Positions 3,967-64,000 of a stretch of DNA of 64,000 nucleotides are shown one piece after another; position 1 is the first letter of the stretch; every line of letters starts with the position of its first letter. The notes under the pieces are model-generated. The model was not told the DNA's origin and ran no database searches. It saw nothing but the letters and a program-made list of their open reading frames with translations. The stretch is from Hexactinellida sp. DTS-2022 (Eukaryota > Porifera > Hexactinellida). Made by a program: the position numbers and the translations under genes. The stretch covers positions 3,596,001-3,660,000 of the forward strand of contig JAPNXP010000014.1 of assembly GCA_028753945.1 (NCBI GenBank), written 5' to 3'.

Positions 3967-5067
3967 AGCATACAGCATGTATGTGACGCTAAATGGCGTC
4001 CTGGTGTGCAACTTGTGGATTTTTTCTATGGAGTAGTGCGTGATGTGAAACGAGCCAAACTAAACCCTAGACATGCATGTGTCCTCCTCACCACACAACT
4101 TCCCAAAGAGGTCCAGTGTAAAGCGAAAGCTGGGTTGGTTGACACAGAATTGCTGTCGGAGGAACAGGCGGGCAACTTCCTAGTTAAGGTGAAGGAATTT
4201 ATGACGCAAAGAGGAATAAGCTTAAGTATAGGTTTTCGTAATTTTGAAAAAATAGCCGTGGTGACGGAGGAACCTGACAATACGCAGTCAGATGAAGCAG
4301 TGCTTGCGAACGTCATTGTGGTGAGACAAAAGTACTATAGAGGTTCAAACAGGGCGAGTGGATACAGAAGAGGGACGCATCCCTCTTACGAGTGTTACAC
4401 GTGTAAGGAGAAAGGACATGGATGGAGAACCTGCCCAAAGAGGAGGCCTACGACCTGGGATGGTACGGGACACGATTACAGGGGATGTCCAAACAGCTCA
4501 AGCAGTGTGCCCATAGGGGACCATGTCAATATAATCACCTCTCCGATGGATGTGAAGAAAGAGGATGCAGTTACACTCCCAATACTTATCCAAGGGATAG
4601 AATTACAAGCCCTGGTAGATACTGGGGCGAGCCAATCGGTGATTGATCAGACATCATTGGAAAAGTTAGATGTAATGTGGACACTAGTAAGCGAGGCCAA
4701 TCAGGTTTATGGTCTAGGTGGAACTCCAGTCCAAGTCAAGGGACAAGTCAAGTTAAAAATAGACCTAGGAGACGAACAAATTTGCAGTCAGGATTTCAAG
4801 GTCCTCGAATTAAAGCAGCAGATTTTAATTTTAGGAAGAGACTTGTTAGCGAACTTCGGTTCTGTGGAATTCAATTTCGGAAACTTGTGGAATCCGTTTG
4901 GGGAACGTCTGGAAGAGGCCAACATCCTTCTACAGAGGGGGGACAGCGGCGTAGGCCGTGTTATTATTGCACAGTGTGCGGAGACAGTCGAAACGAAGGA
5001 ACAGGCGGCATTTGATATTTACCCCGAACTTTTAACTGGTCAGCGGGAAGCTCTTAGTGGAGTTTGA
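3967..5067 (+). pseudogene. Gag C-terminus and aspartic protease (Gypsy 1)
   Basis: One open frame of about 366 codons lacks a proper start. The N-terminal two thirds is capsid-like and helical. A CCHC zinc knuckle (CYTCKEKGHGWRTC) at about 4393-4434 marks nucleocapsid. A retroviral-type protease follows, with LVDTGAS at about 4612-4632 (the catalytic Asp is kept) and the second conserved motif ILGRDLL near 4830. The frame ends in TGA at 5065-5067, overlapping the RT frame (which starts by 5057) in another phase. That could be an old frameshift site or decay. A relative of Gypsy 3 on the - strand. Confidence 0.8.
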
Positions 5068-6410
5068 GAGTGTATTCGCCATTGACCCAAATAAGCCCAC
5101 ACAAACGAATCTCGGAGAGCATGCAATTGACACGCAGGGAGCTCATCCACTGAAGCAGCCATCACTAAGGATGGCACCTAAATGGGAAGTGGAAGCCAAC
5201 CGGAAAGTGGAAGAGATGTTACCAAATGGAATATGCCTCCCATTTAAATCACCATGGAATAGTTCGGTTGTTCTGGTGAAGAATCGAGATGGACGATTTG
5301 GTTAGTGATCGACTACAGGGCACTCAACGATGTTACGAAAAAATACTCTTATTCCATGCCAGACCCACGCACTATTCTGGATAAGTTGCGAGGTAGCAGT
5401 ATATTTTCATTCTTAGATGCCCCGTCGGCCTATTGGTATGTGAAAGTTAAGAATGAGGATATCGAGAAGACAGCATTCAGTATACCTAGGGGGCATTACG
5501 AAATGAATGTTATGCCTTTCGGTCTATGTAATTCCCAGAGTACTTTTCAAAGAATCCTGGACCCCGCCTTAGAATCTGCACGGAATACAGAATCATGTGT
5601 GGATTACTGCATAACACATTCTAGAGGATTTTAGGAACATTTAGACAATTTGCATGAGGCACTCCGGGGCTTCCATGACGCTAGAATCCAGCTAAGAAAT
5701 GATAAAGGCCGTTTTGGATATGTATTAGGCGAGTTTTTAGACACATAGTAGCACGAGAGGGACGTTGGCCTAATCCAGAGTTGACGCAGAAGATAAGTGC
5801 GTTCCACCCTCAAGTTCAGTTATGGAGCTACAGAGGTTTCTTGGAATTCTAAATTTTTACCGTGATTATATACCAAATTTGGCGAGTATGGCCGAGCCGC
5901 TCTATCAACTCACTAGAAATAGTCAGGAATGGGTATGAAATGAGAAGGAGCAAAAATGTTGTGAGCATTTGAGGGACCTGTTGGTCATAGATCCGGTTTA
6001 CTTTAATTTCCGAATTGGGATGATGCATTTTACATCGAATCTGATTCGAGCGACACGGCTATAGGCGAGTGTTATCACAGAAAGAGGAGGGATTTAGAGT
6101 ACGCAGATCAATTAGTCATTTTTCATCATCGCTTAACGATACGCAAAGGAAATATGGCGCAGGCCAAAAAGAAGCGTGGGCGCTGGTTGCAGTGACCCGA
6201 CACTGGTCTCAGTATCTAAGGGCATCTTCACACATATATCTACTTAGCGACCATAATCTTCTTGTTGGTTGCGCAAGCAGAGAGACCTCCGCCATACATA
6301 CGCGAGGTGGCTGATGGAACTAGAAGAGTGGGAGTACTTGATTGTTCACCAAAAGTGTGAAGAGAATGTAGTCGCTGATTGTTTAAGTAGGGACACACAG
6401 CAATGGACAA
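5057..6410 (+). pseudogene. Reverse transcriptase and RNase H (Gypsy 1)
   Basis: RT fingers and palm run across 5057-5305 and 5305-5634 in two frames. FSFLDAPSAYW (about 5404) keeps the first catalytic Asp. The active-site box normally YxDD reads CVDY (about 5596-5607), so one of the two essential aspartates is lost. After a TAG at 5632 the thumb region continues in other frames to about 5950. RNase H follows, with a LLSDHNLL segment near 6240 and a chromatin-of-RNase-H-typical VVADCLSRD end near 6370. Multiple frameshifts and stops show it is inactive. Confidence 0.8.
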
Positions 6411-7906
6411 TGAGGTAAACGATGAGGCAAGATTCTTCGAGGACAAGGTATATCGAATTACGGGTGATCAAGAATGGGTTGCTCGTATTAGGTCGGGACA
6501 GAGTACGGGCGAAGGTATGTCTTTTTCAATATCACAATTGAACAGGGAGGGCGAAGTTACCAGTAGAAGATACAAGCGATACAGGGATATGAACCTTTCT
6601 GATGGAATATTGTGTCGCAGCCGAAAGACAGTAATATCCCCCACACTATGTCATCAGGTATGCAAAATATTTCATGATCAAGGACATGCAGGATACTCAA
6701 GAACAGTCGAGCTATTGATACGTAAATACTTCTGGAGAGGCATGGATCGTGACGTTAATAGAATATGTTATGAATGCCTAGTTTGCCACAAAGCAAAGTA
6801 TCGTACTCAACCCGGTGAATCATTACAGCCATATGACTTTTTGGAAAACTTCGTCCAAGGAGCGCCATCGCGTTAGATATCGCCACGCTTCCGTGGCAGA
6901 TAATGGGAACAGATACTTCTTACTCGTTGTTGATATGTTCACGCCTGATAGAACTGATTGCAATGAGTGATCAGAGAACAGAAACGGTTATCGAAGCATT
7001 AAAGTCGGGGTGGCTATACAGGCATAGACTTCCGAGAATCATAGTGAGTGACCAGGGAAAAAATGTAGATAGTTCAGCAGTAAACACGTGTGCAGAATTG
7101 GGGATCCAAAATATACGTTCATCACCTTATCACCCAGAAGGAGACGGGTTGGCAGAAAGGTCTGGAACCGTGAAACAAGTAATGCGTTGCCTGCTGGAGG
7201 ACCGCCAGATGGAGCAGAAGATTGGCCTAGCTTGCTCGCAGAAATATCTTTTACCTGTAACTCCTTGAAGAATAGCAGTACTGGCAGAACCCCACACGAA
7301 ATATTTTTCGGAGAGTAGTTACGTAATAGCTTGGATACGAAATTAGAATCTTTGTGGAGACAAGCTATCGGCGGTGTAGAATATTATGAAGAACTGCACT
7401 CCAAACGAAAGGAGCTGGCTATAACAGCAGAGAATACTACCGCAGCGCATAGCACTCATAAAAAGTATTATGACCGAGGCAAGACTAGTTCCCATGTGAT
7501 AGAAGCTAGAAGGAGATCAAGTTTTACTTAGGGATGAAGCAAGAGCTAGTTCTTTGGACCCAATATTTGTTGGGCCCTACTTTGTAGTCGCGAGAAAGGA
7601 AGCAAACGTTCATTTACAGGATCCTCATAGTTGAAACACAAATGCGTTCATCGGTGTAAACTTTCTAAAAGTTTTGTGGGAAACTCGCTAAAGCCGTTAG
7701 AGGGACGTTACTCAGTGCTGGCATGTTCAGAAGACGAAGTGGTAGCAGAGGCGGTCAGCGACAGCGGTCCAAACAATGAAGCGCCGGAGGGAGCTCCGGG
7801 AGAGGCGGAGAACAATACGGTTTCGTTCTCAAGATATGGGCGTGCCAGAAAGAATACTGAGTTCTTCGGAGAGCCAGTTCCTGGGATACCGGGGAGAAGC
7901 CTTTAG
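6403..7906 (+). pseudogene. Integrase (Gypsy 1)
   Basis: The H2C2 zinc-binding domain is clear at 6403-6876: HQVCKIFHDQGHAG followed by CYECLVCHKAK. The first catalytic Asp is in LDIATLPW (about 6870), the second in VSDQGKNVD (about 7045) and the Glu in GDGLAERS (about 7145), so D, D and E survive although frames change at about 6877 and 7268. The C-terminal part continues at 7331-7531 and 7631-7906. Family and order match the integrase of Gypsy 3. No envelope-like gene follows. Confidence 0.8.
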
Positions 7907-10253: not shown

Positions 10254-11370
10254 TCATGGTTCACTAATAATTATCTTTGCAGAATCGCATAACAGTAGGA
10301 ATAACCACAGGTCTCTGCAGAAATTTGTTATCTGGGGTAACACAAGACATGCATGTTTTAAGCTTGTAAATGTCTGTTTGCTCAATTTACCACCTTTCTC
10401 GGGCAGTGACTGCCAAGCATCTAACCAATAAACAATTCGTGTCAGAAAGATAAATCGCTCATCATTAAATGTTAGAGGTCTATACATAGGATAATTCAAA
10501 CGAACATGTTTATCTGGCATGTTAACGTTGAAGATTTTCCAAATAGATAAGAGAATCCCAACAAAGTCAGAATTGTTGGATATAAATTCTGGAGATCGTT
10601 GTTCATTCTGTATGGCTAAACTAGCAATGGTGGATTCATGAACTACTTTCAAAACCAACTTAACATTCTGACGTTCAAGGCTGGATGGATAACAAGATTT
10701 AGCTGTCAAACGCGGAGCGAGTTTTGCAAAGCTATCTCTCTTATACGTATAGCATACGGATGTCACGGAAAGAAGCATGACATATTTTTAATGTATAGGT
10801 CACTGGTCAATAGAAATACAATTCAAATCCTGATAAGAAAACAGTTTACCACCAGATTGCTGATTTAACCAATTATTTCGAACACTTTTAAGAATATGTA
10901 CAAAGTCAAACGTGAGGAAAAGATTTCTATTGATATCACAAGGATGTGGTACTTTTGCATCCAGTTTGCCAATAGGGGAAAACAATTTAAAAAGGTAAAA
11001 AATCGGTAGAGATGATTTGAACGAATAAGCCACATTCTTCGACATCACGAATACAAGATTTGATAGTCTCGAATATATTTTCAGCTGTTATAGAAGCACA
11101 TGGAAAAAGACGAACAATAGAAGACCATTTCTTATACAAGCTGGAGACCATAATCGCGAAAACAGTCTTGGTAGGATTATCTGGACCAAGGTTAAAACAA
11201 AGTATTTTACCCCTTTTATATGAAATATCGGATTTGACATGAATCTCACCCATTTGAAAAATAACATGTCTTTGTTCCGGAGAGAAAGATTGTGTGGCTT
11301 GTTTAACGGTATTCACGGAAGTAATATTTACATTCCTATGGATATCTTCTATTGAGTATATATTTAGCAC
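10254..11370 (-). pseudogene. RNase H-like core of P-like transposase A
   Basis: Three overlapping frames (10987-11370, 10800-11048, 10254-10778) together read through the P-transposase core. EIHVKSDISYKRGK and FAIMVSSLYKKW mark the start, STDFLPF the second acidic block, FDFVHILKSVRNNW the DNA/GTP-binding region, and KLAPRLTAKSCYPSS the following helix. The Asp of the DEIHVK-type motif is Gly here (MGEIHVK), so the likely first catalytic acid is lost; copy C keeps it. Frameshifts separate the segments. Confidence 0.75.
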
Positions 11371-13159: not shown

Positions 13160-13758
13160 TTACGGTACGGATAAATCAAATTCGACTGACAAGTACGTAT
13201 CAACTTCAATTTTTCGATTATGAAAACCAGGACGCATATTAATTAAAGTAAATTCATCAGGGTACCATAAGGACCACGTTTTATGTACAGAGAGAAAAGG
13301 TAACTTATCTTGTAACTCCTGAAAACTTTGGATCTTAAATCTTTCATTTTCTTCAACTTCTGACTTGAGACTAAGTGTCACCGCTTGATTGAGGAGCTCG
13401 TCATCCTTGTATTCTCGAGAGAGACGGCTACGTTTGTTGGTAGAGTGAGATGAATAATATTGTGGCATCCTGGTAGTATAGCTGGCACTGCTCCCTCTTT
13501 CAGCTTAGGACGACTTCTTGGCATCTCTCGATAACTCCCGTCTCCATTCGGGACTCTATGCATATATTCGATATCTTCCTCTCTAAAATGCTTCGAGCAT
13601 ACATATACGACTTTCAGCTCATCAACATCTTCTCTGTGTAGAGCTCGCAGTTCAGCGTGTTTCAGTTCATCTGGCTCAAGTGGCATGTTGAAAACTGGAA
13701 TTCTGTTATTCGGGTCGTAATTGCTCCTGCAGCTTGGGGCAGAACAATTGTTCGGCAT
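13160..13758 (-). pseudogene. THAP domain of P-like transposase A
   Basis: From the ATG at 13758 the frame begins MPNNCSAPSCRSNY and continues to CSKHFREEDIEY and an AVPAIL motif. This is a C2CH THAP zinc finger, the sequence-specific DNA-binding module shared by P-element transposase and THAP9. A frameshift near 13470 moves to the second frame (13160-13468), which carries a charged linker. Copies B and C encode the same segments, and the context is a transposase. Confidence 0.85.
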
Positions 13759-24903: not shown

Positions 24904-26835
24904 TTTGCCTAACCCGGTCAATATAGGAAGTTAAAAAGGGTGTTTCAGGAAATTCCTTTTTTTGAAACTGCATTGGGAGTATTTATATAATAGTTTATTA
25001 TCCTGACACCTGCATTGAGAATGACTATTCAGCGTAAGTAACATAATTTTATTATGATATTCGGCGGTTTTTCTGGCTTTTATAGATATATACACAAGTA
25101 TTTTCTCTTAACAATAGATCATTATTTCATTAGTCGAATAACTCCGTCCACTTGGAATAATGTATTTGGCCTCATTCAATGAGATTAAGTGAATTACATT
25201 GCATTGAACTCAACGTAACTTCATGCACTAGAATGTGACGAGTCCGTACGGTATGCAATAATTCGTTGTTAATGATTAGCTATAAATGAACTTTTTAATT
25301 ATGAATCAATATGTACAAATTCCTAATAACTAAGTAATAATTAATAGGAAATAGTACAGCATGTGTCAGAAAGTTGAATTTATTTACACCAACAGTAGTT
25401 TAACGCAGTACTATTACTAGTGAAATTATTCTTCGAAAAGATTGTTTTGTGTATTCAATTTATTTCTGGATTATTTTCTGAATCCAATCGAGTTCGTACT
25501 GAGTCCGTATTGATTATTTACGAAGTGCGTTAATACGGTACTGAAAGGAGCTTTCCGTACTAAGTCTAGACGCGTAGCTACGTCTGCATGAAGACAGTGG
25601 TAAATTTGGGTGCGGCATTTCCGCACGATAGTGTTATACTATTGGGCATTTGGTGGCCACAAATTCTTCGGCGCGGCATATGCTCCAAGTGCCTTACGCC
25701 TCTGACTAAGGCCATATTATTCCGTACTGTACTCCTTACTAGGCTACTATGACAATACTGACCTGTAAATGATCTGCTAGATCCCAACAAGTTATGGAAA
25801 TGTTGCTAAATTTTATTGAAAAATGTCTTTGGTCGTGAGAGCATGATAAATACTTGTCCACTGCATTATTAAAAATTTAGCCTCATTCTTGGATTAACCA
25901 ATGGGTTTTCCACTCATTTAAATTGATATTGACAAATAACAAATTTGGGTAGAGAAATACTCTGGTCCTCTCATTAGGGCTACAGCTAGGATTTATCTAT
26001 TGGTGTGGCATAAATTGTCAAAAGGAACCCGATAGTAACTAGACTACCATTATTTGATATATTTATAATTAGATTTAAATATTTATTAACACATTATTCT
26101 CAAAGACATAATCTACAATAATAGGTGGCGGATGCACAATTTCAAATCTATTATGGACCTGTGGGTTTTCTGCAAATGTGTATCTTGTCTGCCAATCGTT
26201 TACTAAATTTCTGGATTAGATTGGAGCCTTCCGAACCACTCCTTGTCACACCGTGCTACATCCTTCCTAGTCTTCTGCCTTTGAGTTTATCAACGTTCTC
26301 TTTTTGAAAGTTGATGACCTTAGGGAAATTATTATTTTTATCATTTCGTTTTTACTGTGCCGATTAATATGTAGTATTCGATGGAGAATTGAATTCTGCA
26401 CATTTTCACAGTGCTCGAATTTCAAACGAATTTCGTTTACTAACACTTAGTTCAATTAAAAGTGTTAAGTACAATTTTATCATTTCTACTTCTGATAATT
26501 ATATTTTTTCAACCTATGAGATTGTGTAGGCTTCTATTTCCGAATTTAAAATTAATATTATTTTTTCTATAACAACGACAGATTATGTTAGTATATTTCC
26601 TTATGCGATTCTACTCACAGTGGGGGAGATGACAATTTGGGAAAATTGGCATTTTAATAGCCATGAACTATTATTGGCATATTTTATTGATAGCTAGGAT
26701 CTGAATGGTATGGTAGAAAATGATGTATCTAATCTCCTAAATATTAATTACTCATGATCATTGGTAAAGTATTTACCTTGGGAAAATAACTAAAAACCTA
26801 GTCTTACACAAGGAAATTTAATATTGCAACGAATG
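24904..26835. other. AT-rich intron, no gene or element resolved
   Basis: Scattered short frames only. A GC-richer patch at about 25500-25790 contains no recognisable protein on either strand. Confidence 0.4.
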
Positions 26836-27739: not shown

Positions 27740-28430
27740 AGGAGGGAAACCCAGGGAGTTCAAATGTTTCGTATGTGGAGGAAGAGGGCATACCGCACAA
27801 ATTGTCCTAGTTCTCGGACATTTAATTCGAATCCAGTTCGACAAGTGCGATTTTATAATTGTAGACAAACAGGACATATAATGAGGAATTGCCCGGAACC
27901 ACCCGTGGGACAAAATTTAAACATCAAGGGACTTGTTGGGAGAGCCGAAACAAGGTCCAGCTTCTAAATATGGCTCGATTTGACCGATATCCTGAGAGAG
28001 ATATCGTAGCTCTTTGCAAACCTGTGAAACATATGTACATTGTAGCAGAAATTGATGGTGTAGCGTGCAAAATCATGCTAGATAGTGGATCTTCCATTAG
28101 TCTTATTTCAAATACCATATTTAGAAGAGTAAAGGATATCATCCCTACACCAGCAGAACAACTGTTATTAACAGCAACCGGGAATAAGATGCAATCTCTG
28201 GGCGAGGCAGAGTTGGAAATGACGATTGGCAAATTTCGATCACTTCAAAAATTCATTATAGCATCTTCTCTTATTACAGATTGTATTCTAGGGATTTACT
28301 TTTTGGCAAATCATCGAATCAGCCTTGACTTTGTTAATAGAGTAGCTATTGGACCTACAATTGGGAGAATAACTACCTTAGATCTTCAAAATGATTCAGA
28401 GAACATACAACATTCATGTCCCGTTCACAC
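27740..28430 (+). pseudogene. Nucleocapsid and protease of Gypsy 2
   Basis: Two CCHC knuckles lie at about 27765-27900. The second reads FYNCRQTGHIMRNC, with the first Cys replaced by Phe-Tyr, and a frameshift separates the first. The protease has MLDSGSSISLIS (about 28075-28110), with its catalytic Asp intact, and CILGIYFL near 28285. The frame runs straight into the MITE at 28431 and picks up 41 foreign codons before stopping at 28554. Confidence 0.8.
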
Positions 28431-28588
28431 CAGTGGCGGCGCTAGCATGGGGCTGGATGGGGCGCTAGCCCCATCACATTTTTTCTTAGCCCCATCAGTT
28501 GATGGGAAACTGATGGGGCAAGGTTGGCTTAGCCCCATCAAGAACCCGGGTTAGCCCCATTCAATACGCAGGGCTAGCGCCGCCACTG
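28431..28588. mobile_element. hAT-type MITE inside Gypsy 2, 158 bp
   Basis: A perfect 16-bp TIR cagtggcggcgctagc, with an exact 8-bp duplication gttcacac (28423-28430, 28589-28596). The interior repeats the motif tagccccatca in both orientations. Together with one duplication copy it adds 166 bp (not a multiple of 3) to the Gypsy reading frame. Same TIR type as 1722-2027. Confidence 0.92.
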
Positions 28589-30102
28589 GTTCACACGTTA
28601 AATTTCCCGGAAGCTTATTCAGCTTCTAATTCAATGGATCAATTAGAGGAAGATTGGGATTGTCTAGTAGCCGTTCCTAAGTACGACAATTCATATAGCA
28701 TTGAATATCCCGATCCCAATGTTAAGGACTTTCAGGAGCTTTTTTTTATATACCTGGGGTGGCAAACCTTGAACCATTCCCGTTCCATACGAGGAACGCA
28801 CCACATATCAAGCTGCCGCCTAGAATGATACCACAAGCCTATGAGCAAGAAATATATTCACAAATTGAGGAAATGCTTAGCAAGGGCGTTATAAAGGTTT
28901 CAAATAGTCCATGGCTGGCTCCCCCAGTGCTTGTCAAGAAGAAAGATGCAGTCTTTGATTTTGTATTAATTATCGGAGTTTAAATAAAGTCACGCAAAAA
29001 GATGCGTCTCCACTACCTCTTCCCGATCATGTTCAGGACAAACTGAGTGGCATGAAATTTTTTACAAAACTGGACCTGAACTCAGGCTACTGGCAGATAC
29101 CAGTAGTAGATTTAGATCGCGAGAAAACTGCCTTTTCTCCAGGTCCCGGAATGGGACTCTATGAATTCAACGTCCTTCCCTTCGGACTTACCGGTGGACC
29201 CAGTTTCTTTCAAAGAATAATTAGTCAAGTTTTGAGTGGACTGGATGACTGCAAAGAGAATTTCACCGATGATATTTTAGTATTTTCTCCAGATATGGAA
29301 TCACATCGGAATGATCTAAAGGATTATTTCAACGGCTTCGAAAACACAAATTGACGTTACGTGGACGAAAATGTGAGGTCGGAAACAATCGATCAATTAT
29401 TTGGGTCATACCTTTTCTGAGTTGGGGATGTCACCCGAGAATTGTAAGGTGGAATCTATCGTAAACTGGCAGCAACCCACGAATAATTTTTTTTATGGGG
29501 CTAGCTAATTATTACAGAAGATATATCAACAAATATGCTTCAATTTCACAACCGTTAATTTCCCTGTTAGTTACAGATACCGCATTCACGTGGATTGAAG
29601 ACGTGGATGTTGCATTTAAGAAACTTAAAAGAATTATTGGCATCCTATCCAGAAGAAATTTACTTTATGCACAGCTTCAAGTGGAACCAGTTTGGGAGGA
29701 GTGTTAGAACAGGACGGACAAGTGATTGCTTACTACAGCAGAGCGTTAAGGAAGCCTGAGAAAAATTATAGCACGATAGAATTGGAATGTTTTGCGGTTG
29801 TGGAATCGGTGAAACGCTTCCGGCACTATCTCTTAGGGCGAGAGTTTGAGATTCTGACTGATCATAAACCATTAGGATGGTTAGCTAATCAAAAATGTGT
29901 TGGACTTCTTTGGCGTTGGGCTGTTGTATTACAAGAATACGACTTTATAATTACATATCGTAAGGGGACTGAGAATGATAATGCAGATGCTCTTTCGCGT
30001 TTTACATATGAAGATAGTGTAACTGAATTAACCGTGCAGAAATCACCTGATAACGAACTTTGTGCACTTAGTACTGAACTTTCACAATTACCTCCTATGT
30101 AA
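28589..30102 (+). pseudogene. Reverse transcriptase and RNase H of Gypsy 2
   Basis: Spacer protein resumes after the MITE (ORF from 28634). RT begins at about 28759 ([17 protein letters not shown]), shifts frame near 28970, then FFTKLDLNSGYWQIP carries the first catalytic Asp (about 29060). The palm box is FTDDILVF (about 29266), where both aspartates remain. RNase H occupies 29692-30102, with YYSRALRKPEKNYSTIELE, LTDHKPL and NADALSRF. Frames break at about 29354-29495 as well. Confidence 0.85.
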
Positions 30103-30319: not shown

Positions 30320-30959
30320 CTGACACAATGAAAATAGATCTTCTCCGTCAGGATCACGATAATGCTGGTCAACAGGGTATTGAACATACTCTCAGTCGTC
30401 TCAAGTATCTGGCGTATTGGGTTCGGATGGCTTCCGATGTCAGCGATTTTGTTAACTCATGTGAAATTTGTCAATAGTCTAAATTACCCTTACCAACTCA
30501 GGCCCCATTATTAAATGCTCCTATCGGCAGGCCCATGCAACTTGTGCATGTTGATGTCCTGGAGGTTCCAGTTAGTCTAAAAGGACACAGAAATATTCAA
30601 GTAATCGAATATTCTTTACAAAATGCTAGAGTGCTTTCCAATGATAAATCAAAAGACGGAAACAATAACTGAGTTATTAGTCGAAACGTTCTCCAGAATT
30701 GGTATACCTGAATTTCTACACTCAGTTCAAGGGAGAAACTTTGAGTCACATCTCTTAAGAGAGACATGTAATTCATTGCAGAGACATGTAATTCATTGCA
30801 TTAAGAAAACACACACAACATCATGCCACCCACAAGGTAATTCATTAGTAGAAAGAAGCAATAGAACAATTCTCCAATTGCTTCGGTGCTATGTTGATAA
30901 AAACGAAGATTTGGGAGAGATATCTGTATTTGGTTTTGTTTCCATATTGAACGTCAAAC
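30320..30959 (+). pseudogene. Integrase zinc finger and core, Gypsy 2
   Basis: An H2C2 domain (GQQGIEHTLSRLKYLAYW, then CEIC followed by TAG) lies at 30360-30480. The core starts with VHVDVLEV (first Asp, near 30545). The second acidic block reads LHSVQGRNFES near 30718, where the usual Asp before Gln is Val. The Glu is kept in SLVERSNR (about 30845). A 20-bp tandem duplication sits at 30761-30800. The frame is then cut at 30960 by the RAG1/Transib-type element. Confidence 0.8.
30761..30800 (+). repeat. 20-bp tandem duplication in integrase
   Basis: gagacatgtaattcattgca occurs twice head to tail, adding 20 bp (a frameshift) to the Gypsy 2 integrase. Confidence 0.95.
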
Positions 30960-31174
30960 CACAGTGGCACGAAATGGCAATTTGGTGGAAATACCAATTA
31001 ATATGGGAGATAGGACTAAGAAATGTATTATTGTTATATAGGTTATCGACCCAAGGAAACACTTTTGTGTGATCAGATGTTATGTAGGACTTCAGGGTGA
31101 CAGATTATGACGTCATTGGAATTCTCATAAATTTATTAATATATACAAAAATGAAATATTTTGTAAAATTCAAG

Positions 31175-32259
31175 TTATTCTTCTAGGATAAGGGAATTAA
31201 CCATAATATCTTGCTTACTAATTTCTTCTTTGTTAATCTTAAGGGGTAATTTCTTATTTTCTCTATATAGTAAGAGTCCTGGATCACTCTGACACATGAT
31301 ACGATTAAACACATCTCTTATATTATCTTCGAATGAAAACTTACGTGACAAACGCTCCCTAAATCTTCGAATCAACTTGTTTGTTGACTCAAGCCCCTCC
31401 TCGGATAATTGTTCCAAGCCATATCCGTTGTTTATATCAGATATTATGTGTGATGCATGGGCTAATACCCTATGTAATGTAGGTGTTATATTAGCCCAAG
31501 GGAAACGTGTCAAAATCAGCTGATACAGTTCACGACACACAACTGTTAGTTCAACTGTGTCTATTCTCTTATCGCTTTTATATAATCGTAGAATGGCTCC
31601 AAGGGAAATGTGGATATCGGTTATTACTTGTTTGTATTCTGATGTTATCACTGATAAAACCCAAAATAGAAAGTCCCTCTGAGAATCATCTCTTCTTACT
31701 AAACATCGCCTAACTACATTTCCCGTTGTAGATGTACCACCTTGTGTAGAAGGACAATCGATCTTTATGTTCAACTTTTCTTCGATTAAATTACAAATAA
31801 AACTTTTCGCATTTTTACTTTCGATGAAGTTGGAGACCATTTTCTCACTCCGGCATTCAAATGGCTAATAATTAACATGAACCAACTGAAACATCTAAGG
31901 TATGAGTGCAGGGGTGAACTAGGAATTATTTCAATATCAGATAATGGGACATGTGTAAGATTAAATCGTTTGTCAGAACTTAGTGAGAGGAATTCTTCAT
32001 CATTAACCTCTTCGAAGATTGCTTTGGCATCACTGATAAATCTGTTTATTGGAAAGCCATCCTGGACAAGATCCAAGTCGTGTATCTGTCTAAAGGATGC
32101 AGTACAGAACTGACAGCAAGCCCCTCCAGCTCCACTTAAAATTTGAGCCATTTTACCATCAATTTGCGAACGCAAAACTTCGACACTTGCAGTAATACCA
32201 TTGATCAAAGTGAGACCGTTGTTTTCAATGTAAGCAGTTTCTTTATTAATTGTCGACAT
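31175..32259 (-). pseudogene. RAG1/Transib-like transposase, C-terminal part
   Basis: Two overlapping frames (31786-32259, then 31175-31840) are separated by one frameshift. The first has a zinc-binding CCQFCTAS after DGKMAQILSGAGG, as at the equivalent point in Transib and RAG1, and then SPLHSYLRCFSWF, where family members have an acidic residue after LHx (RAG1 Asp708 region); here it is Tyr. The second has STTGNVVRRCL, then HRVLAHASHII and LSEEGLESTNKLIRRFRERL, matching RAG1's His-rich and SEGNESGNKLFRRFR segment with the catalytic Glu. The N-terminal half, including the first catalytic Asp, is missing. It is thus a deleted, inactive copy. Confidence 0.85.
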
Positions 32260-32759
32260 CAGAAAGCGTTTTTTTGGGCTAACTCCGGGTAACCTAGGAA
32301 TTGTTTTATTATGTTATAAATACAATTTACTTTAAAATACTTCTTAATTTACAACGGGCAACAACAGGCAAAATTAGTTGCATCAGTTTCAGCACGTAAA
32401 GCTATCAATACTTAATAGAGAAATTATATCTTGTTTTGAAATGAGAATATAATAAATTACTCAGAAGATACGTTAATTATAATCTTACCATTAGAAAGAG
32501 CTCTAAAAATACTCCCTATTCATAACTTACGCACATGCCTATTAATATAGAAATGAAATGCATGCATGAATTCCTAAACTACTAATATGAAACCTTGAAA
32601 AATCATATTTTATAATTTTGTGGTTGTCTACTCTTGATTAGCAAAGTTCAAGAGATATCACTTGTGTTGCTTTATAATTCGCATTTACTTATAGGTTTAC
32701 GAGTATGGAGAATACGTTATAACTAATTATAGATAGATTTTAAGTTACACAATTATTCG
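32260..32759. other. Non-coding 5' part of the RAG1/Transib-type element
   Basis: AT-rich, no coding sequence. It probably spans an internal deletion that removed the N-terminal transposase. Confidence 0.5.
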
Positions 32760-32790
32760 ATATTTCCACCTATCGTGCCATTGTGCAAAC

Positions 32791-33294
32791 ATTCTACTAC
32801 CGGAGTCTCCCCATTTCAGCTTATGTATGGGCGAGATTCTCCCAGTATTGGTCAGTTATTCCCCCAAACTGGACATGATCCAACTTCTTGTGAGAAGTTT
32901 CTGCGTCGGAAATTGATTGAAATTCAGGAATTTGAGAAGGCCAATTAATACATGCACAAAAACGGGAAAAAGAGTACTACGATTCACACTGTAATGCATC
33001 AGTAAGATTTAAGGTGGGTGATTGTGCTGGCTGTCTATCCCGCATGTTGGTGTGTCGAAAAAATTTGACTCTGAGATAACTGGTCCTGTAAATGTCAAAA
33101 TTGAAAGTTCGGATGGGAGGATTAGAATTGTTCACTTTAACCGACTTCTACCGAATATCATACGTCAGGATGTTGGTGCGGAGGATGTAATTAGATATGG
33201 GAAAAGTAATACAACGAACCGTAGTATGATGGCGCGAGAACATGCGATTACGCAGAACGATAGTTTATCTGAAGGTAAACAGAAGCCGATATAA
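32791..33294 (+). pseudogene. Integrase C-terminal region, Gypsy 2
   Basis: The integrase resumes after the RAG1/Transib-type insertion with STTGVSPFQLMYGRD (about 32790-32840). It continues in shifted frames to GPVNVKIESSDGRIRIVHFN (about 33085-33145), a GPY/F-type module, and ends at a stop at 33292. Confidence 0.75.
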
Positions 33295-33876: not shown

Positions 33877-34495
33877 TCAGTTAAACCTTTCTAATAGCTT
33901 TAGAACCATCATATCACTGATAACACGGTTTCTACCCCATAAGCATACTAAAATTGAAGCGCATCGGTCAATAGAAAAACAGTTCAAATCAGGATAAGAA
34001 AAGAACTTATTATCAGTTTGTTGATTTAACCACTTATTGCGAATAGTCTTCAGAATAAGTACGAAGCCAAATGTATTGAAATACCTCTGCGTATACCACA
34101 AGGGTGTGGTATTCGATTCTCCAGCTTTCTATTAGGGGAAAACAATTTGAAAAGTTCACATTACGGGGATAGTTGTCAGTGGAGATGATTTCAACGAACA
34201 AGCCACAATCTTCAACATCATGAATACAAGATTTGATAGTGTTGAATAACTTTTCAACTTTTACAGAAGCACATGGGAGTAGACGGACAACACAAGACCA
34301 TTTCTTATACAGACTCGACACCATGATAGCTAAAACTGTCTTCCTAGGAAAATTATCTGAATCGAGGTTTGAAGCGAACAATTTGCCTCCTTTATAAGAA
34401 ATATCAGATTTCACGTGAATTTCATCCATTTGAATAATGACATGCCTCTGTTCCTGAGAAAAGCAATGTGTGGATTCCTTAATAAAAATAAGCAA
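33877..34495 (-). pseudogene. RNase H-like core of P-like transposase C
   Basis: The frame 34034-34495 has QMDEIHVKSDISYKGGKLF, LAIMVSSLYKKWS, then STDNYPRNVNF. The Asp of DEIHVK and the later acidic STDNYP are both kept, unlike copy A. A second frame (33877-34101) holds FVLILKTIRNKWLNQQ. The transposase then stops: the post-core and C-terminal domains of copies A and B are missing. Confidence 0.75.
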
Positions 34496-60657: not shown

Positions 60658-60994
60658 ATTCAGTTCAGCAAAGATACACTGGGGCGGGCGTTTCCCAAGA
60701 CGTTAGAGAATATGTGAGTTTAATTATCCGGTATACTTTCCTAGGTAGCACGTGGCACAGTGGTTTATTTGGATCATTCACAGGAAGTAGGTATTTCCAG
60801 AGCAGATAGACCTATCAAATGTATTATATACCCATGGGTTATCTATACCTGTGAATCCATTTATGGATTCAGAAAATTATTACGGCTTCAAAAAAGATTT
60901 TACGTCATAGTGTTTTTATTTATTCCCATAATTCCACTAATATTTGCTAAATTTGTATTTTCAAATAAACTAAAGCTAATTCATTCATTTATAT

Positions 60995-61362: not shown

Positions 61363-61633
61363 ATTTATATGCATCTCTAAATAAATGCATGGTGTAGATA
61401 TAAATTAAGTTGATAATGTAATTCGAGAGCCAAGTCCAGTTAAATAACCAGCTTTTTGACATCAACGGTTCGACCAGTTTATCTTGTTCCAATTTTGGCA
61501 TTTGATCACCCTTGCATTTAGGTTCTCGATTATGCTGAACACGATAAAAACGTTTTTGAAGAGATCAGAATAGGTAAAAATTGTCCAACTCCCTGTCAAT
61601 AAACCACTGTGAGTGGTTCGGTCATGGCCGGAC

Positions 61634-63277: not shown

Positions 63278-64000
63278 TAATAATAATAATAATAATGCAT
63301 TTCTAAAGCGCAAATTCCATAAAAATATGTTCAAATGCGCTGTACAGGAATCTATTAAAATCAATACAAATAAAAGTGCGTGTGCGTTTGCAATAGTGTA
63401 CTCAAGTATGATGTGGACTCAGTGGAGTATGTTAGCATTTCTTGAATGCTTCTAGAAAAAGATGGGTTTTTAATTGTTTTTTAAAGACTTCTAGGGAAGG
63501 GGAATTTCTGATGGCAGTAGGGAGGCGATTCCATTCTTTTGGTGCTGCGATGGTGAATGAGCGATCACCGAGAGTTTTGAATGAGTTGATTGCTGGTTGA
63601 TCAAGCGTAATTGCAGATCCCGACCTAAGAGAGCGGGTTGGGCGTTTCACTTTGAGGAGATCTGAGATGTATGCAGGTTCATTTGAATGGATTGCTTTGA
63701 AAGTGATCAAGAGGATTTTGAAGATGATTCGGTAATTGATGGGCAGCCAGTGGAGATCATATAGCAGTGGTATTGACTCAGAAAGTATAGATGATTGATG
63801 GATAAGTCTGGCTGCGCTATTCTGGACACGTTGGAGGCGAGAAAGTAGTTTGGAAGGATGTCCGTAGAGTAGGCCATTGCAATAATCCAAACGAGAGGTA
63901 ACAAGAGCGTTTACTAGGGTTTCACATACCTGTCGAGAGAGATATTTCCTAATTCTCCGGATATTATAGAGAAAGTAGAAGCAAGAGGATGCAACCTTGG
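63278..64000 (-). mobile_element. L2/CR1-type LINE, 3' end
   Basis: The - strand ORF at 63432 to the window end encodes the C-terminus of a non-LTR reverse transcriptase. After its stop comes a short 3' UTR (cagcgcatttgaac) that ends in a (TTA)n microsatellite at 63278-63297, as in the L2/CR1 group. Enters the window from the right. Confidence 0.85.
63432..64000 (-). CDS. L2/CR1 LINE reverse transcriptase, C-terminal part
   Basis: Open frame of 189 codons from the right edge to a stop at 63432. IRKYLSRQVCETLVNALVTS, LDYCNGLLYG, RLQRVQNSAARLI, LHWLPINYRIIFKILL, LGDRSFTIAAPKEWNRLP and FKKQLKTHLF are the conserved C-terminal (connection/thumb) blocks of L2/CR1-type ORF2. No stop or frameshift in the part seen, so it may be a relatively young copy. 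The catalytic RT core lies outside the window. Confidence 0.88.
   Translation of the reverse strand, partial: KVASSCFYFLYNIRRIRKYLSRQVCETLVNALVTSRLDYCNGLLYGHPSKLLSRLQRVQNSAARLIHQSSILSESIPLLYDLHWLPINYRIIFKILLITFKAIHSNEPAYISDLLKVKRPTRSLRSGSAITLDQPAINSFKTLGDRSFTIAAPKEWNRLPTAIRNSPSLEVFKKQLKTHLFLEAFKKC

Follow-up and report, generated by a model that had tools for sequence, protein, structure and literature searches.

A probable Transib-superfamily transposon with one short and one long end in the genome of a glass sponge

Structure of the transposon copy and its target site

The window, that is, the whole stretch of 64,000 nucleotides of Hexactinellida sp. DTS-2022 analysed here, has a mean GC content of about 36% and contains a transposon copy lodged in a Gypsy integrase sequence. 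The copy and its flanks comprise the following features.

30623..30959, plus strand: Gypsy integrase reading left of the insertion; its open frame continues into the element to 31072
30955..30959, no strand: left copy of the target-site duplication CAAAC, from the sequence and the empty sites
30960..32785, minus strand (orientation of the transposase gene): entire transposon copy of 1826 bp, defined by its ends, the 5-bp duplication, empty sites and a sister copy
30960..30995, plus strand: long-type end on the stop side of the gene, with CACAGTG at 30960-30966, a 20-bp spacer and GGAAATACC at 30987-30995; type matched in sister copies
31175..31840, minus strand: transposase fragment, open frame of 221 aa, with GGTSTTGNVVRR at 31741-31706 and the catalytic Glu block EEGLESTNK at 31402-31376, without the CCGHC tail
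31786..32259, minus strand: transposase fragment, open frame of 157 aa, with QIDGKM (second catalytic Asp) at 32166-32149, the zinc C-x2-C (CCQFC) at 32118-32104, an insert of RAG1 length (GFPINR at 32058-32041) and SPLHSY at 31917-31900
31804..31816, minus strand: frameshift between the two fragments (approximate position)
32267..32268, minus strand: internal-deletion junction; 1161 bp absent relative to the copy on contig C14
32759..32785, minus strand: short-type end on the start side of the gene, with CACAATG at 32785-32779, an 11-bp spacer and GGAAATATC at 32767-32759; type matched in sister copies
32786..32790, no strand: right copy of the duplication CAAAC, from the sequence and the empty sites
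32786..32944, plus strand: Gypsy integrase reading right of the insertion, beginning KHSTTGVSPFQLMYGR

The left terminus at 30960 is CACAGTGGCACGA (longer plus-strand reading, CACAGTGGCACGAAATGGCAATTTGGTGGAAATACC), and the right terminus, read on the minus strand from 32785, is CACAATGGCACGA (longer reading, CACAATGGCACGATAGGTGGAAATATC). With up to 2 mismatches, CACARTGGCACGA occurs five times in the 64-kb window, compared with a mean of 1.16 in shuffled sequences, and five occurrences were reached in 1 of 100 shuffles. Three of the five are exact, two of these being the two ends of the element. The heptamer is followed by GGAAATAnn after 20 bp at one end and after 11 bp at the other. The coordinates and the inverted CACAGTG-type ends reported in the initial annotation proved exact, the heptamer being CACAGTG on the left and CACAATG on the right.

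The exact 5-bp duplication and the location inside a Gypsy integrase, both claimed there as well, were also found. Both flanks read as integrase (the match of Pfam rve to the left part is weak, E 0.071), and the Gypsy stretch is uninterrupted at the insertion site in two places elsewhere, L062 (93% identity) and L063 (86%). The duplication and the uninterrupted Gypsy copies therefore demonstrate an insertion with a 5-bp duplication.

Other mobile sequences were observed in the window. Protease and RNase H domains upstream of the insertion are clear by Pfam (frames 27889-28554 and 29692-30102, plus strand), and retroelement frames were recognized by eye at 4006-7268 and in the rest of 27889-30102 (plus strand) and at 63432-63890 (minus strand). 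Further Transib-type ends or remnants appear as 82% matches to the F2 end at 1560-1721 and to the F5 end at 60756-60843 (both plus strand). Long-type heptamer-motif ends also lie at 26616 (plus) and 43801 (minus), and a piece at 61454-61555 resembles the C-terminal tail of F5. The minus-strand open frames 10987-11370, 13378-13758 and 34034-34495 resemble pieces of what we take to be P-element/THAP-type transposases.

The transposase remnant

The 221-aa frame matches HzTransib at 1.2e-11, ProtoRAG RAG1L at 1.7e-5 and RAG1 at 3.8e-4 at best, a positive outcome of the comparison that the initial annotation had proposed. Its match to Pfam RAG1 (2.7e-5, 23 bits) falls just below the 25-bit cut-off. 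The 157-aa frame gave no meaningful match when searched alone; with adjoining bases it aligns at 72% to an intact relative, L003. The zinc motif, the GGTSTTGNVVRR block and the Transib/RAG1-type protein described earlier on the minus strand were located in the two frames. The N-terminal loss was traced to the deletion junction, and the single frameshift to a point near 31.81 kb, where tblastn pieces in two frames meet.

One claim was not reproduced: a Tyr in place of an expected acid was not found, because both later acids of the triad, Asp in IDGK and Glu in GLES, are present. The first catalytic Asp lies inside the deleted 1161-bp part, and two of the three catalytic acids are kept. A complete transposase is thus beyond the coding capacity of the window copy, which would have moved with an enzyme made elsewhere.

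Sister copies in the same family

A sister copy on contig C14 (L002) is 3181 bp long, is flanked by the duplication TTATG and is 99.4-99.5% identical to the window copy over three shared blocks. It is interrupted at element positions 1869-2053 by a 185-bp insert with the ends CAGG.TTTCATCCAGG, the flanking matches overlapping by 8 bp; this insert is presumably a small hAT-type element.

Across the genome, 8 ends of the long type (92-100%) and 7 of the short type (88-100%) belong to this family, and further short copies measure 1436, 1455 and 1474 bp. Both ends were found in 7 copies. Four of these have an exact 5-bp duplication (window, C14, C1 and C5), one has complementary flanks with its ends facing the same way, and in two the flanks differ. 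The copy with same-facing ends (L072/L085, C11, 5751520 and 5754584) has the 5-bp flanks CAGCA/TGCTG, an arrangement that a later inversion of one of its ends would produce. When the other copies were checked for termini or duplications lying elsewhere, they were seen to share the termini and to have 5-bp duplications distinct from that of the window copy, and the boundaries in the initial annotation therefore hold.

Transib elements across the genome

The genome comprises 112.4 Mb in 18 contigs. In a protein search, 150 of 526 candidates were scored and all 150 were matches, so that at least 150 matches are present; 13 of the 150 have uninterrupted frames of at least 700 aa. Full-length copies, for which a search had been suggested, do exist. 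The intact relatives L003 and L029 have single frames of 716 and 710 aa, with 606/620 bp before and 218/325 bp after the frame, and L003 (family F7) is the closest intact relative. L009 has a frame of 719 aa with 609 bp before and an unexplained 1062 bp after it, and its same-end relative measures only 2890 bp overall. Two ends and an exact 5-bp duplication were found in 8 of 22 joined regions (4 of 10 in one set and 4 of 12 in the other); the remaining 14 either lacked a recognizable end or had unlike flanks.

Some relatives were probably mobile recently. Because copies are near-identical and frames are open, the family may be active now or may have been so until recently. Two further matches, L005 and L006 (C11, 4606700 and 4620596), lie 14 kb apart and agree in score, stops and flanks, which suggests a local duplication rather than two insertions.

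Asymmetry of the ends

The inner parts of the two ends were compared in seven families with the zero offset left out, and the best offset was +9 or +10 in six. In these six, the score was reached by 0, 8, 15, 20, 74 and 99 of 2000 shuffles. F7 (L003) has no clear offset motif, its score being reached by 1350 of 2000 shuffles. In F5, the zero offset scores 11 against 10 at +9, because the outer repeat of this family is longer; F6 has two clear ends with unmatched flanks. The short end always lies on the start side of the gene in the six families.

The pattern CACAGTG-N(6-18)-GGAAATAGG has 156 matches genome-wide and none in the control, and CAGTG-N(15-21)-GGAAATAGG has 285 matches against 3 in the control. 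The heptamer CACAGTG, which is the V(D)J consensus, occurs genome-wide. Spacers and pairings were counted among the matches listed on C1-C5, those of the long type to 4.38 Mb of C5. The 59 listed short spacers are 11 bp (47), 10 bp (8), 12 bp (2), 13 bp (1) and 15 bp (1) long; the 100 long ones are 21 bp (50) and 20 bp (47), with one each of 19, 16 and 15 bp. Spacers of 22 bp gave 6 matches (control 1) and those of 23 bp gave 23 (control 14); by eye, no more than one or two of all these looked Transib-like.

Of the 156 sites used on C1-C5, 58 can be joined into 29 pairs that face each other over no more than 5 kb; the other 98 have no partner with the exact motif. All 29 pairs join a short to a long end, which was reached in none of 20000 label shuffles; this figure and the 29 of 29 overstate independence because the pairs are copies within a few families. 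The agreement on lengths among families with different spacer sequences is a stronger point than the shuffle figure. The pairing of short with long ends is an observation on C1-C5, and it may reflect a functional pairing rule.

Comparison of the transposases

A profile of 55 relatives was compared with solved structures and matched HzTransib at 5.9e-89, BbRAG1L at 5.5e-49 and RAG1 at 8.8e-32 and weaker. The match to BbRAG1L extends over residues 10-624, with residues 10-137 at 1.6e-5, and the three catalytic acids are aligned in the intact relatives. Between C-x2-C and LH there are 64-66 residues in the sponge rows, 63 in mouse RAG1, 59 in BbRAG1L and 31 in P0068; the HzTransib pieces have 16, plus 13 chain residues that are not printed. 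In our reading of the alignment, the insert in the sponge zinc region, which the 55-row profile aligns with BbRAG1L, would be the equivalent of alpha11-alpha12. A CCGHC pattern near the C-terminus was found in 55 of 217 scanned sequences, many of which are fragments, and L029 and L030 are among the 55. The subfamily of the window copy is without this CCGHC (CTT1) tail. The tail of L029 and L030 is Cx2Cx3GHx5C, and that of RAG1L is Cx2Cx3GHx4C in the available text of PMC7204232.

A profile of the N-terminal segments matched 3gna, the structure of the RAG1 nonamer-binding domain, at 1.7e-4, and full RAG1 chains followed at 9.3e-4 or less well; all of these rank below a spurious chain built of repeats, and BbRAG1L reaches only E 1.3. 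By these scores, the intact relatives appear to have a stretch resembling the RAG1 nonamer-binding domain. By analogy with the nonamer contact made by RAG1, as given in the accessible part of PMC8289069, this region might read GGAAATA.

In the maximum-likelihood tree of 39 rows, which is unrooted, has few named references and is flagged for long branches (long branches meet), 5 rows from this genome, 4 from Oopsacas and 7 others form one clade (100/100), the rows of this genome and of Oopsacas being interleaved. Two separate pairs lie outside the sponge clade, HzTransib plus P0068 and BbRAG1L plus mouse RAG1 (100/100 each), and a row from the ctenophore Bolinopsis groups with environmental rows (98/97). 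Named relatives made up 22 of 68 rows in one search and 11 of 97 in another, all of them from the glass sponge Oopsacas minuta, which has a GC content of 36% (PMC10280926); a search with a non-sponge relative returned 1 named row of 64, the ctenophore Bolinopsis microptera. A relative with which to root the tree was sought with P0068 and HzTransib in genome contigs (179 pattern stretches) and with P0017 in viral contigs (3 stretches), and none was found in either.

The proteins P0134-P0167 are Transib-like and come mostly from short contigs. Many have exact Cx2Cx3GHx4C tails, the inserts are 68-70 residues long in the aligned rows, and in the tree they are neighbours of the ctenophore protein. 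Many relatives bear the precomputed domain PF26100, which the Pfam scans of this work did not report.

Identity of the element and alternative explanations

The sequence at 30960-32785 is very probably a non-autonomous, internally deleted transposon of the Transib superfamily, whose relatives encode, in a single frame, a DDE transposase with a RAG1-like core (about 710-750 aa) and have unlike ends. It is not a RAG1-RAG2 transposon (ProtoRAG/RAGL), because no RAG2-like gene was found and L003 and L029 leave little space outside the frame. A remnant of a true RAG1L-RAG2L transposon that has lost its RAG2-like gene could account for the insert of RAG1 length, the CCGHC tail of some subfamilies and the long profile match to BbRAG1L, but HzTransib scores far above RAG1L and the few hundred base pairs around the intact frames speak against it. 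The longer stretch after the frame of L009 is offset by its short same-end relative. The adjacent RAG2-like gene that the initial annotation suggested looking for was not found, Pfam RAG2 giving 0 matches, a count made uninformative by a control that likewise matched in none of the searched genomes. Moreover, the ends begin with CACARTGG and so depart from CACTWMCAAACKTYKBB, the consensus given for protostome RAGL ends in PMC7204232; such a remnant is quite improbable. An ordinary insect-type (Subgroup II) Transib without RAG1L-like traits is improbable as well. The best match among solved structures is HzTransib, which is of this type by its published description, but the sponge insert is far longer than that of P0068 or HzTransib, and these two group with each other (100/100), separately from the sponge clade (100/100). 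Domestication of a RAG1-like transposase as a host gene would explain the persistence of open frames, but the frame is broken, and terminal repeats, a duplication and empty sites are present; this origin can practically be dismissed.

A more serious alternative concerns the ends of the Transib element rather than its identity. The asymmetry may have been inherited without function, the spacers having come to differ by chance and then having been copied along. The paired ends come from a few families and are non-independent, and F7 has copies despite lacking a clear inner motif, as this explanation would allow. It does not readily explain why families with different spacer sequences all keep to lengths of 10-12 and 20-21 bp, or why no Transib-like peak is seen at 22 or 23 bp. 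Inheritance without function is considered rather unlikely, though far from negligible.

Proposed mechanism and evolutionary meaning

In the mechanism proposed here, the inner motif GGAAATAGG and its variants would be read by the RAG1-type nonamer-binding-like region and CAC by the transposase core. One short end (10-12 bp, start side of the gene) and one long end (20-21 bp, stop side) would then be synapsed, and the element would be excised by nick and hairpin. Excision of this kind is known for Transib and RAG. The excised element would be joined to a target with a 5-bp stagger, here the Gypsy integrase gene. Both the need for unlike ends and the hairpin route are thus predictions of this scheme.

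We advance only tentatively, as a possibility somewhat short of an even chance, that in an early-branching animal a RAG1-like transposase, working in the absence of RAG2, follows a rule of the 12/23 kind, short ends with long ones, by means of a nonamer-binding-like domain. At stake is the source of the 12/23 rule, which may have arisen with RAG2 or in vertebrates, or may go back to the ancestral transposon. If the proposal is true, the ordering rule of V(D)J recombination predates both the RAG2 partnership and the bilaterians, and it could be studied in a transposon system of high copy number that was apparently mobile until recently. Invertebrate RAGL complexes have been proposed to be relatively insensitive to end asymmetry (PMC7204232, available sections), and autonomous Transibs typically number one or few copies per animal genome (PMC4411706, in the part available). 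Many intact-looking Transibs, the heptamer CACAGTG and short/long pairs offer a direct test bed, and RAG1-like traits are placed in a sponge.

Comparison with known systems

The core of the initial annotation, a RAG1-related Transib transposon whose heptamer is of the V(D)J type and which has many relatives in its genome, is upheld by the ends, the duplication, the homologies and the copies. Elements of this kind are already known, since asymmetric Transib ends are in print (PMC9435367 and PMC8355894, as far as their accessible text goes). What the present analysis adds is the genome-wide extent of the short/long structure of the ends; the abundance of Transibs is unusual. Among the titles listed from the open literature, none dealt with Transibs in sponges, and the word Transib is absent from the main text of each of two papers on glass sponge genomes (PMC10280926, PMC10282587).

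Judged by its sequence, the element agrees in three of four traits with the Transib "Subgroup I" described by Tao et al. 2022. According to that paper (PMC9435367), bacterial Transibs, those of Subgroup I and RAG1L are characterized by an alpha11-alpha12-equivalent region, which Subgroup II has lost. The likeness consists of asymmetric ends, the zinc-region insert, the lack of RAG2 and, in some subfamilies here, a CTT1-type tail; the differences are the glass sponge host and the tail-less subfamily of the window copy. Drosophila Transib5, Anopheles Transib2 and N1-N3, with 12/23-like ends in the accessible text of PMC8355894, also combine one short and one long spacer, whereas here the lengths are 10-12 and 20-21 bp, the motif is GGAAATAGG and hundreds of such ends lie in this one genome. 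HzTransib (PDB 6pqn) shares the transposase core and, from what is in print for Transib, the CAC ends and 5-bp duplications, but it is without the long insert of the sponge relatives; most Transib families, HzTransib included, have symmetric ends (PMC8289069, available part).

ProtoRAG/RAGL (BbRAG1L, PDB 6b40) is alike in its RAG1-like core, an insert of similar length, the CCGHC tail of some subfamilies and asymmetric ends, which are 27/31 in ProtoRAG (PMC8289069, same part). It differs from the sponge elements, for which no RAG2-like gene was found and whose ends have another sequence and spacing. The V(D)J signals used with RAG1 share the heptamer CACAGTG and the presence of two spacer classes whose lengths differ by about one helical turn; the sponge ends have spacers of 10-12/20-21 and not 12/23, GGAAATAGG in place of ACAAAAACC, and belong to a transposon rather than to an immune locus.
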